Below, in pieces: positions 27,688-30,519 of a stretch of 64,000 nucleotides of DNA (positions within the stretch are counted from its first letter, which is position 1; each line of letters starts with the position of its first letter). Location of the stretch: contig CAMCUN010000006.1 in the NCBI GenBank assembly GCA_945878995.1, forward strand, positions 1 through 64,000, given 5' to 3'. The notes under the pieces were generated by a model that was not told where the DNA came from, searched no databases, and saw only the letters and a list, made by a program, of their open reading frames with translations. Made by a program: the position numbers and the translations under genes. Origin of the DNA: Polaromonas sp. YR568 (GTDB lineage: Bacteria > Pseudomonadota > Gammaproteobacteria > Burkholderiales > Burkholderiaceae_C).

Positions 27688-28008
27688 TCAAGTTGTTCTC
27701 CTGACCGCTACGGCGGCAATAAAGTCTTCCACCAGTTGGTTCAAGCAAGTGAATGTTTAGAGCAGCTCTTTCCCGACCAAATGGCAGTGCTCCCCCTTGC
27801 CCCGCCCCTTGTCAAAGCCCACGATGCGAACACCATCCGGGGCATAAACCGCACGGTACTTGAAACTTTTTCCAAAAGCTTCAGCACTTTGGTCGGCACC
27901 TCGCCGTTTTGGACCTCGTTCGCCTACATGGGCGCGCTCAGAGAAGTGGATATGCGTGGACTGCGTGGCTTGTTGGTCGCTGATCTGTAAGGCCCGAAAA
28001 CTGATCAC
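27688..28008 (-). pseudogene. TumE-like (DUF6516) toxin gene broken by a nonsense codon
   Basis: The frame starts at GTG 28008, overlapping the DUF2283 stop by 4 bp, and runs to a TAA at 27757-27759, then stays open for 22 more codons to TGA at 27688. Before the TAA is FKYRAVYAPDGVRIVGFDKGRGKGEHCH and after it TFTCLNQLVEDFIAA; together these match the TumE-family core (YR...G.R..G.DN.RGKGDHRH) and its FT..QLV.DF tail. TumE relatives normally have tyrosine at the TAA site, so a TAC/TAT to TAA change is the simplest reading. The first 40 residues do not look family-like, so the N-terminus may also be altered. No TumA-like antitoxin gene is recognisable downstream. Confidence 0.6.
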
Positions 28009-28196
28009 GCAGCTTGGCGGTATTCCACCGGCAAAAGACCTTCTTTTTTGGCGTCAAGCAGAACGATCTGCACAATGCTGCCGTCTTCGGCGTAGCTGAT
28101 GTGGGTGTGCCAGCCCTGTGACGCTTCACGCACGATCGGTTTGTCAGACACGCGAATCTGCAAGATGTCGTCATTTTCGAAGTAGGTGCTTTTCAT
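28005..28196 (-). CDS. DUF2283 family protein, probable antitoxin
   Basis: A 63-residue protein with the DUF2283 pattern: MKSTYFENDDILQIRVSD, then a central strand and DGSIVQIVLLDAKKEG (the G-x-I-h-x-I segment). DUF2283 proteins are commonly encoded next to DUF4258 toxins and annotated as their antitoxins. Its ATG overlaps the stop of the DUF4258 gene by 4 bp (28193-28196), and its own stop overlaps the GTG of the TumE-like frame, so all three are translationally coupled. Local GC looks lower than in the flanking genes. Confidence 0.72.
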   Translation of the reverse strand: MKSTYFENDDILQIRVSDKPIVREASQGWHTHISYAEDGSIVQIVLLDAKKEGLLPVEYRQAA

Positions 28197-28453
28197 GGCG
28201 CTGGCCTCCAGTGATGCATCACGGTCTTGATCACCAGTACATTGTCAATGACAGCGGCCACACACAGCAAGTTGTCATCTCGCTCTGGGCAGTGCTTGTA
28301 AAACCAATAATGGCCGGGGCCAGCTTCCTGCTGAAGGCCCGTGTAGACAATGTCCTTTATCTGTTCAAAGCTCATGTTGCGTTCCCAGGCGCGCTGCTGC
28401 GCGTGGGTAGTGAGCACGATCTCCAGTTCATCAAAACGATTGCTTTCCGGCAT
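28193..28453 (-). CDS. DUF4258 family protein, probable toxin
   Basis: An 86-residue basic and histidine-rich protein with the DUF4258 signature: VLTTHAQQRAWERNMSFEQI near the N-terminus (the HA..R..ER.hs...I motif) and GHYWFYK plus VIDNVLVIKTVMHH in the C-terminal strands. DUF4258 proteins are RelE-like predicted ribonuclease toxins paired with DUF2283. GAGG is about 8 bp before ATG. First gene of the coupled three-gene unit. Whether it is still active is not visible from sequence, but the frame is intact. Confidence 0.72.
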   Translation of the reverse strand: MPESNRFDELEIVLTTHAQQRAWERNMSFEQIKDIVYTGLQQEAGPGHYWFYKHCPERDDNLLCVAAVIDNVLVIKTVMHHWRPAP

Positions 28454-28602
28454 CGCTCACCTCAAAAATCCTTGAACACTGTCACCCGATTGAAAAAACG
28501 CATCGCGCCCGCCACAGGGTTCCCAAGCCGCTCAAACTGAAATTTCTGTTACCGAAGTGCTTGTGACAAGAACGGCTACACGCTGGAAGTGAGTACCTGC
28601 AA

Positions 28603-28932
28603 CTACTCCAGCTTGATGGCAATAGCGGCATACCAATGCGACAAGGCCTCAATGTCCGCATCGGTCAAGGTCTTGGCAATCACGGCCATCACCTCGTGGG
28701 GGCGCTTGCCGCTCCTGTAGTTTTTAAGCTGCTCGGCCAGGTAGATCTGGGGCTGACCGGCCAAGTGGGGCACGCCCGGCTGCATGGCCATGCCCATGGG
28801 GCCGTGGCAGACGGCGCAGGCTGTGGCGGCCTTGGTGCGGCCTAAGTTGAGGTCCTGGGCTTGCGCCGAAAAGCCCAGCACGCACAGGGCGAGCAAGCTG
28901 GCTCCGGCGGAAAACAACTTGGTTTTGATCAT
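28603..28932 (-). CDS. Monohaem cytochrome c, start codon displaced by an inserted element
   Basis: A 109-residue exported cytochrome: signal peptide MIKTKLFSAGASLLALCVLGFSAQAQ, single haem site CAVCH at residues 39-43, and a following HLAGQPQIYLAEQLKNY segment like class I cytochromes of the c4/c5 kind. It follows the sorbosone-dehydrogenase-like gene, its likely electron donor. A 235-bp MITE-like element lies exactly between its ATG and its native upstream sequence. The target duplication gives two copies of ATGAT, so an upstream ATG at 29172 is also in frame and would add 80 residues in front of the signal peptide. No good Shine-Dalgarno precedes the ATG at 28932, so expression may be reduced. 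Confidence 0.85.
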   Translation of the reverse strand: MIKTKLFSAGASLLALCVLGFSAQAQDLNLGRTKAATACAVCHGPMGMAMQPGVPHLAGQPQIYLAEQLKNYRSGKRPHEVMAVIAKTLTDADIEALSHWYAAIAIKLE

Positions 28933-29167
28933 CCTAAATCCGGCAGTTGGGCGCGGCCGAGGGGCTGACGAAGCAGGTCTCTGGCTAGGCGCGAGTGCCC
29001 CCCGGACTGCCTGTCCGGGGGGGGCGAGCAACAACGCCAGAGGCCTGAAGCGGCAGACCTGCGGCCGTGCAGCGCTTTCACCCCTGAGGTGAAGGTCGTC
29101 GTGTGCGCAAGTGTTTGATTCATCAAGTGTTTCAAGCGGAAGCAAGCGGCCAACTGCCGGGTTTAGG
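28933..29167. mobile_element. 235-bp MITE-like element with 18-bp TIRs and 5-bp target duplication
   Basis: Terminal inverted repeats are CCTAAATCCGGCAGTTGG (28933-28950) and its complement with one mismatch (29150-29167). The 5 bases ATCAT are repeated directly outside both ends (28928-28932 and 29168-29172), a target-site duplication. Inside, further paired segments (28973-28980 with 29055-29062) and a central 10-bp hairpin (28998-29007 with 29013-29022) make the element highly foldable. It encodes no transposase. Ends beginning CCT recall IS1380-type termini, but family assignment is a guess. The 240-bp gain (element plus one duplication) is a multiple of three. Confidence 0.88.
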
Positions 29168-29235
29168 ATCATTCAACAACTCGTTCAAACACGCGACAAC
29201 GGGCGCTGCAATGCAGCGCCCGTTGAGGGAATCTC

Positions 29236-30519
29236 TCAGTTGCTGTAAGTGATGCGGTAGATGGCGCCTGCGTAGTCGTCAGAGACCAACAAGGAGCCGT
29301 CTTTCATGGGGGCCACATCCACGGGGCGGCCGCGGTAAATGCCGGTGTCAGGGTCCAAAAAGCCCTCTGCAAACACCTCAGACTTGCCTGCCGTGCCGTC
29401 GGCATTGAGTGGCACAAAGTTGACCAGCCCGCCTGAAGCCTTGGTGCGGTTCCATGAGCCGTGGGCTGCCACAAACATGCCGCCTTGGTACCTGCTGGGG
29501 AACATTTTTCCGTTGTAAAAAGTCATGCCCAGCTGCGCCTGGTGCGCGGGAAACTCCACCTGCGGCTTGGTCCAGGCCGCGGGTGCGGCCATGCCCTTGA
29601 GGTCTGGCGCGGCTGCCGTGCCCGCAATTGGCGTGTTGTTGCCATGAATGAAGGGGTAGCCAAAGTGCTCGCCTCCGGCCTTGGTGATGCGGTTGAGCTC
29701 GCCGGGAGGAATGTCGTCGCCCATGCCGTCGGTTTGGTTGTCGGTGAACCACACCACCTTGTCTTTGGGGTTGATGTCCATGCCCACGGAGTTGCGCACG
29801 CCGCGGGCAATCACCTCGCGTTTGGAGCCGTCAAACGCGTCCATGCGGATCATGCCGCCTATGCCCAGCTTTTCATACAAAGCCACTTTGCCGGCGGGCT
29901 GCACGTTGTAAGGCTGGCCCAGGGTGATGTGCAGCTTGCCGTCGTCGCTGATGCGGCAGGTGCGCGCACCGTGGTTGAAAGACTCTTCTTCTTCAGGAAT
30001 CAGCTTGCCTTGGGGCACCACCTCGATGACCGCCACGTCCGGGCCTTCATAAAAGAACTCGGCAGCCGGGAAGTTGAGCACCCGGTTGTGTTCCACCACC
30101 ACCAAAAAACCGTCTTTGGTCCAGCACACGCCGTTGGGCACCTTGAAGTTCAGCGAAGGGGCAAAAGCCTTGACCTCGTCGGCAAAGCCATCGCCGTTGC
30201 GGTCGGTCACGGCCCAAACGCGGGTTTTGCGCGTGCCCACAAACAGCATGTTGGTCGAGGGTGCCACCGCCATGTGGCGGGCGTCGGGCACCACCGCAAA
30301 CAACTCGATCTTGAAGCCTGGCGGCATCTTGATGCGCTTGAGGTTGGCGCGGATGGCATCGGCGTTTTTGCCTTCTTGCGCCACCAAAGGGATGTTCAAG
30401 TCCGTGGTGGCCACCTTCATGGACTGCAAGGTTTTGAGGTTGTCTTTGCCCGCTTGCGCCATGGCGCCCGTGGCCAGACCCATAGAACACAGGGCGAGCG
30501 CCAATCTCGTGAACTTCAT
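29236..30519 (-). CDS. PQQ-type sugar dehydrogenase, sorbosone dehydrogenase family (copy 2)
   Basis: A 427-residue periplasmic beta-propeller protein with a signal peptide ending near GAMAQA. It shares with copy 1 (7106-8332) the opening IKMPPGFKIELFA, the GVRNSVGMDINP block, WFTDNQTDGMGDDIP and the C-terminal DGSLLVSDDYAGAIYRITYS. The substrate is not predictable. GGAGA is 5-9 bp before the ATG. It precedes a cytochrome c gene, repeating the gene order of copy 1 on the same strand. Confidence 0.88.
   Translation of the reverse strand: MKFTRLALALCSMGLATGAMAQAGKDNLKTLQSMKVATTDLNIPLVAQEGKNADAIRANLKRIKMPPGFKIELFAVVPDARHMAVAPSTNMLFVGTRKTRVWAVTDRNGDGFADEVKAFAPSLNFKVPNGVCWTKDGFLVVVEHNRVLNFPAAEFFYEGPDVAVIEVVPQGKLIPEEEESFNHGARTCRISDDGKLHITLGQPYNVQPAGKVALYEKLGIGGMIRMDAFDGSKREVIARGVRNSVGMDINPKDKVVWFTDNQTDGMGDDIPPGELNRITKAGGEHFGYPFIHGNNTPIAGTAAAPDLKGMAAPAAWTKPQVEFPAHQAQLGMTFYNGKMFPSRYQGGMFVAAHGSWNRTKASGGLVNFVPLNADGTAGKSEVFAEGFLDPDTGIYRGRPVDVAPMKDGSLLVSDDYAGAIYRITYSN

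Follow-up and report, generated by a model that had tools for sequence, protein, structure and literature searches.

The window analysed here, a stretch of 64,000 nucleotides from Polaromonas sp. YR568, carries on its minus strand a gene for a glucose/sorbosone dehydrogenase-like protein (GSDH; 427 aa, positions 29236–30519) and downstream of it a cytochrome c gene (109 aa, positions 28603–28932 including the stop codon) that encodes a signal-peptide-like start and then CAVCH; both genes have Pfam support. Immediately in front of the cytochrome gene lies a MITE of 235 bp (positions 28933–29167), whose plus strand is the one with the superfamily-conserved RNA fold described below, the cytochrome being encoded on the opposite strand. 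Its left terminal inverted repeat, CCTAAATCCGGCAGTTGG (28933–28950, plus strand), is matched at the right end by CCTAAACCCGGCAGTTGG (29150–29167, read on the minus strand, i.e. as reverse complement against the left end), and ATCAT stands on the plus strand both at 28928–28932 (inner duplication) and at 29168–29172 (outer duplication). The original prediction of an element inserted exactly at a start codon had described these features as 18-bp terminal inverted repeats with one mismatch, a 235-bp body without transposase and a 5-bp target duplication; the ends and duplications agree with this description, and no frame inside the element in the list of open reading frames is long enough for a transposase. 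Including the duplications, repeat-arm detection found arms of 27 nt with 89% complementarity. It was also correctly recognised that the minus-strand reading of the duplication, ATGAT, equals the five bases with which the cytochrome gene opens, which yields an outer and an inner ATG, and that the net gain of 240 bp introduces no stop: a minus-strand frame of 189 codons is listed at 28603–29172, which begins at the outer ATG, crosses the element and continues into the cytochrome.

The interior of the element consists mainly of a long structured arm (28951–29070, plus strand; alignment columns 19–144) with an internal-loop motif that reads GGCTAGGCGC / GAGCAACAACGC here and GGCAAGGCGC / GAGCAACGC in its superfamily form, followed by a small hairpin TCACC..GGTGA (29078–29092, plus strand). 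Beyond the element, a perfect 14-bp hairpin is found at 29197–29225, between the dehydrogenase and cytochrome genes; it is terminator-like, is not followed by a T run, and is also present with a different loop in the relative G045. Downstream of the cytochrome (28005–28453, minus strand) a DUF4258 gene of 86 aa is followed by a 63-aa frame, a layout like that of a small two-gene module.

An orthologous empty site, the comparison proposed along with the original prediction, is found in G045, where a single ATGAT is present and the sequence is identical to the joined window flanks at 807 of 860 positions, with no gaps. The G045 cytochrome shares 95% identity over 109 aa; its start is an ATG matching the inner one of the window, in both cases 38 codons before CxxCH. 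In all 13 further homologues examined from the genus (L092–L104, 48–63% identical) an ATG is located 28–42 codons before CxxCH, and in most of them it is followed by what by eye looks like a signal peptide, L104 appearing unusual. It is hardly conceivable, then, that the 240 bp belong natively to the cytochrome as a coding extension, with the repeats elsewhere being secondary, as the single open frame of 189 codons might be taken to indicate. None of these genus homologues has the 80-residue extension, whose conservation in relatives had been named as an observation that would speak against an insertion, and at other places this sequence is flanked by different 5-bp duplications. Because of the empty site in G045 and the homologue starts, we reject a native origin of the extension.

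The element is repeated in its own genome, where 26 whole and partial stretches were matched, one of them merely the second end of another. The 15 complete copies examined are 92–100% identical, several others being cut by contig ends, and the search for further copies with target duplications bore out the expectation: 14 of the 15 are flanked by a perfect 5-bp duplication, that of L016 being 4 bp long. DNA matches were obtained in 8 of the 121 genomes searched (its own and relatives), with several full-length copies also in G045 (95–97%) and G023 (80–83%). Taking five copies from G045 together with the 15, perfect duplications occur in 19 of 20; the second base is T and the fourth A in every one of the 19, which gives the target rule NTNAN. 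ATGAT fits this rule, and the insertion at a start codon therefore needs no special mechanism; judged from the duplications, it is an ordinary target of the element family. Small, multicopy and lacking a transposase gene, with terminal inverted repeats and target duplications, the element is a MITE, and the cytochrome case represents a well-supported MITE insertion, neat in its target and of a kind already known.

Four of the 15 complete copies are placed in front of a Pfam-supported gene (cytochrome c, enoyl-CoA hydratase, FtsJ-type methyltransferase or PIN domain), at distances of 0–45 nt from its start, a count for which the neighbours of six of the 15 were compared with Pfam and from which no preference for gene starts is claimed. 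Apart from the cytochrome, these are the copies near 1496–1500 of L005, L007 and L011, which precede the enoyl-CoA hydratase, methyltransferase and PIN-domain genes by 45, 23 and 15 nt respectively, the starts of the first two genes having been chosen by eye. The copy near 1496–1500 of L004 overlaps the ATG of a 109-aa frame with no Pfam match, and the copy of L016 is inserted 44 nt before the stop codon of a gene. At the start of contig C114 (L030 1–252, G000) part of an element is joined to a stretch that looks tRNA-like by eye; the contig had the look of an element with a different interior and was set aside as a probable assembly join.

The minus-strand frame that shares the register of the duplication has no stop in 10 of the 11 complete 235-bp copies and in 11 of all 15; a given frame of the element's composition stays open in 8.6% of shuffles, and since the copies are related by descent their open frame amounts to about one event. 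Across the superfamily 9 of 45 elements keep this frame open, against about 4.9 expected per frame in shuffles. Selection of the open frame at the cytochrome locus was rejected on the 235-bp copies; the 80-codon frame is a family trait and not an adaptation at the cytochrome gene. It is in register with the probable relic of a transposase start described below.

As for translation of the cytochrome, comparison with G045 places the whole ancestral leader and initiation region in front of the outer ATG. Upstream of the inner ATG, at a distance of 6 nt, stands a GGA that belongs to the right terminal repeat, and this repeat pairs with its left counterpart. In fold predictions, the mean unpaired probability between -15 and +5 is 0.30 for the outer ATG, 0.16 for the inner one, 0.31 for G045 and 0.33 for the joined window flanks; for the stretch of the ribosome site (-12 to -5) the values are 0.28, 0.14, 0.15 and 0.33. 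The argument for hindered initiation at the inner ATG is weak, because in the latter stretch the empty site of G045 is as closed (0.15 vs. 0.14). According to the scheme we propose, the ancestral leader and ribosome site would now serve the outer ATG and ribosomes would read through the element, which is feasible because the frame is open, and the inner ATG would be left with the weak GGA site inside the end-to-end stem. Exported cytochrome would then probably stem from initiation at the inner ATG, aided by translation from the outer ATG and at a reduced level, and the long product, its signal peptide preceded by 80 residues, would probably not be exported normally; we hold both expectations, drawn from the model, with low confidence. 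The insertion might instead be silent for translation, the inner ATG alone being used and the element serving as extra leader, a reading to which we give a little less than even weight: the inner ATG is still followed by the ancestral signal peptide and preceded, at 6 nt, by GGA, and its predicted ribosome-site stretch is no more closed than that of G045, but the wider start region is less open than at the outer ATG and in the joined flanks, and it is the outer ATG that keeps the entire ancestral initiation region. Whichever start is used, the window genome and G045 form a clean before-and-after pair for studying start-codon choice across a folded insert of 240 nt.

The larger result concerns the family, which is IS1380-linked and has a covarying, strand-biased RNA fold. 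A search with the pattern CCTRRAWHCGGCAGTTGRNCGC matched 18 of 87 genomes of the genus (the reversed control pattern none) and at least 117 stretches in named genomes. Isolates with elements belong to Ottowia, Tibeticola, Ramlibacter, Roseateles, Nitrosospira, Nitrosovibrio, Thiocapsa, Thiohalocapsa and Methylocaldum, and elements were also found in many metagenome bins, of which some are labelled as other phyla and may be binning errors. We surveyed end pairs in 91 loci, namely 80 of the at least 117 stretches and 11 loci of the genus including the window element, and obtained 72 pairs (a few overlapping), 39 of them 234–235 bp long. Perfect 5-bp duplications flank 36 of the 72, and all of these again have T as the second base and A as the fourth. 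By these matches the element is part of a MITE superfamily of beta- and gammaproteobacteria; neither the superfamily nor an IS1380-type MITE is described in the titles and abstract openings of the open-access papers surveyed. Elements of a second size class (162–163 bp; L120, L146, L153, L174 and L177) have the same ends and a body that looks different.

The idea of an IS1380-type mover was prompted by the end of ISEcp1. Proteins were compared with the family models PF13701 (Pfam) and NF033539 (NCBIfam, cut-off 180 bits): a Tibeticola protein scored 180.3 bits against the latter, a Thiohalocapsa protein (160.0 bits) and a fragment from G023 (61.4 bits) fell below its cut-off, and all three exceeded that of PF13701. 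The Thiohalocapsa element measures 1716 bp, with the ends CCTAGATACAGCAGTT/CCTAAAAAGAGCAGTT and GTCAA on both sides, and the one of Tibeticola 1657 bp, with similar ends and no matching duplication. With the Tibeticola IS1380-family transposase as query, pieces were recovered from 12 of 87 genomes of the genus. Those in G023, G125 and G127 adjoin CCTAAATCCGGCAGTT, identical at 16 of 16 nt to the left end of the MITE, and those in G127, G125, G048 and G028 adjoin the other end, CCTATTTCCGGCAGTT; a copy in G127 that is split by an insert is flanked externally by CTTAT at either end. All transposase pieces of the genus are broken, and no intact element with exactly the ends of the MITE was seen among them. 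PF13701 and protein searches found no IS1380-family transposase in G000 or G045, and a partner within the element's own genome was thereby discarded. A classical IS1380 partner was rejected as well: of 16 IS1380-family loci examined from the taxonomic order, seven have ends unlike those of the MITE (e.g. CCCGGATATTTCA) and 4-bp YTAR duplications. Another of the 16, L252, has CCCAAATTTCCC ends and a 5-bp TTCAT duplication, and ends matching the MITE were found only in a diverged IS1380 subgroup. In G125, a stretch of 634 bp (L311 1175–1808) has both IS1380-type ends, transposase pieces only and the flanks ATTAA / ATGAA; it is a possible step between IS and MITE.

We consider it very probable that a diverged IS1380-family DDE transposase, duplicating 5-bp NTNAN targets, moved the MITE, and we infer that it did so in trans: such an enzyme would act on the non-autonomous element, whose insertion at ATGAT, the five bases that open the cytochrome gene, duplicated the start codon. 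A transposase of another family, for instance of the Tn3 type, which also produces 5-bp duplications, could have moved the element if the match to IS1380-type ends merely reflected shared ancestry. This seems improbable to us: the own genome, which was searched for transposases of the IS1380 family, does lack a recognisable one, and mini-elements with Tn3-type ends, assigned to Tn3 in PMC4133298, give 5- or 6-bp duplications, but the Tn3-type ends given there are 38 bp long, and the 16-nt identity with ends beside IS1380-type pieces of the same genus, the NTNAN duplications on elements of the IS1380 subgroup and the positional relic of a start codon all argue for IS1380. The IS1380 member ISPsp9, as listed in the same article, measures 1718 bp, has ends of 21/18 and makes a 5-bp duplication, and is compared here by description only. 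With the IS1380 family the MITE shares the end CCTAAATCCGGCAGTT of the pieces in the genus, a 5-bp NTNAN duplication and a probable relic of the start hairpin; unlike its members it has no transposase gene, and its left arm was not found in the ISs examined.

This relic lies in the right arm. Five of seven IS left ends (from four genomes, two of the five from G125) have ATGGGTGA at nt 84 inside a TCACC..GGTGA hairpin, a position that, from the reading frame, would be the transposase start; the remaining two do not. Counting from the corresponding end of the MITE along its minus strand, we find ATGGGTGA at nt 83 in 11 of the 15 genome copies, with AGGGGTGA in L001, L011 and L012 and neither in L016; in the window element this position (29083–29085, minus strand) reads AGG in place of the ATG of the 11 copies, and the hairpin around it is a probable relic of the one at the transposase start of the parent IS. 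In the superfamily, NTGGGTGA occurs at nt 83–85 in 20 of 45 rows (16 TTG, 3 CTG, 1 GTG), as compared with a mean of 0.01 and a maximum of 1 in shuffled bodies. Aligned against IS left ends and scored relative to shuffles, the right arm reaches z values of 4.9–9.9 for six of the seven (L296, 0.5) and of -3.3 to 1.1 against IS right ends. Because of the position of the start relic and these scores, the right arm is probably what is left of the 5' end of an IS, as judged by sequence comparison. For the left arm, z values against IS right ends are between -0.4 and 2.4, which leaves a plain deletion of one of the examined ISs unsupported.

MITEs are commonly viewed as transposase-less IS remnants; the superfamily found here in beta- and gammaproteobacteria combines an indicated IS1380-type parent with a covarying fold over most of its length. 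From 50 elements of 228–238 nt, 45 rows were kept after dropping those with at least 90% position-by-position identity, and aligned. RNAalifold predicted 58 pairs, 41 of them with double changes, and addition of the small hairpin raised the number to 63. In this structure 95.1% of the cells are paired (77.2% when shuffled), 445 cells carry double changes (135 when shuffled, 68–105 in slid structures) and the structure score is 0.493 (0.172 when shuffled); double changes are absent from the small hairpin and from helix 5, which has two pairs. None of 500 shuffles reached any of the five measures, counts that are not to be read as probabilities, as the rows are related and the structure was derived from the same alignment; the slid control keeps this relatedness.

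The fold is also biased towards one strand. Plus-strand RNA is predicted to be more stable in 43 of 45 elements (the exceptions being L139 and one element of L181), with a mean strand difference of 17.0 kcal/mol compared with 5.4 in mononucleotide shuffles, and the cytochrome reads the strand on which the element folds more weakly (-111.9 vs. -149.6 kcal/mol). In the structure predicted from the plus strand, G.T cells outnumber A.C cells 263 to 35 on that strand; the one predicted from the minus strand, when read on that strand, has 163 G.T and 182 A.C cells, and the 64 pairs that the two predictions share have 171 G.T and 51 A.C cells on the plus strand. The excess of G.T on the plus strand, with none on the minus strand, points to plus-strand RNA, and a strand-biased conserved fold of this kind turns the question whether MITE RNA acts into a directly testable one. 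Several bases in the loop of the arm are furthermore invariant or nearly so and stay unpaired.

We tentatively propose, at a level of confidence short of even, that the superfamily is a mobile structured RNA whose plus-strand fold, above all the GGCAAGGCGC/GCAACGC arm, is selected for a role in the spread of the element, the arm being combined with unrelated ends in several other MITE-like families. The fold might, for example, process or protect the transcript or insulate the sites of insertion, and the RNA module would then be portable, with the IS1380-type ends as one vehicle among several. It is known that DNA palindromes undergo quasipalindrome correction. The structure could accordingly be a by-product of such arm-to-arm correction during replication, which yields compensatory changes with no RNA function, and the terminal repeats do show compensatory changes too. 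We regard this as rather unlikely, as it is at odds with the near-invariant unpaired loop bases, with the surplus of G.T over A.C on the plus strand both overall and in the shared pairs, a surplus not seen in the minus-strand prediction, and with the greater stability of plus-strand RNA in nearly all elements.

The element was not assigned to a known RNA family, as it has no Rfam match at gathering score. In window positions 28400–29700, searched with a lax threshold, three matches fell below the gathering score and none reached it; 19 superfamily loci gave only three tRNAs, and all 14 matches from ten loci searched with a lax threshold were below their gathering scores. Among described elements, the bacterial MITEs reviewed in PMC10969869 are likewise short and multicopy, with inverted ends, target duplications and stably folded transcripts; here, in contrast, compensatory changes from genus to genus back the fold, and there are indications of an IS1380-type parent. 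The same review reports in-frame fusions of MITEs, notably in Rickettsia, whose palindromic elements resemble ours in that an in-frame insertion can extend a protein and, compared by description only, differ in that here a start codon is duplicated in front of a signal peptide. The motif MRSC-65-2 of PMC11109978, a paper with 249 other mobile or repeat candidates, is also a repeated, covarying stem and a suspected selfish element; going by its description there it is set apart by a single long stem with a UYCCGG repeat, as opposed to several arms and a GGCAAGGCGC/GCAACGC loop.

With strict filters, a covariance model of the fold yielded matches in 69 of 274 genomes (including the own) drawn as a sample of the class, and some of these matches comprise the arm only; part of the arm-only matches could reflect any long hairpin, and their loop letters were compared by eye. 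Arms of the GGCAAGGCGC/GCAACGC type that match the model and have no IS1380-type ends are located in L329–L338 and L341 (regions of G669, G420, G489, G616, G559, G676, G612, G601, G496 and G645). The inverted ends around such arms differ, being for example TAGGGCCTGTTCACACTA in L341, GTGTACTGTTTCACCC in L331 and AGTGGGCCATGCGG in L329, the last of which contains two arms in opposite orientation.
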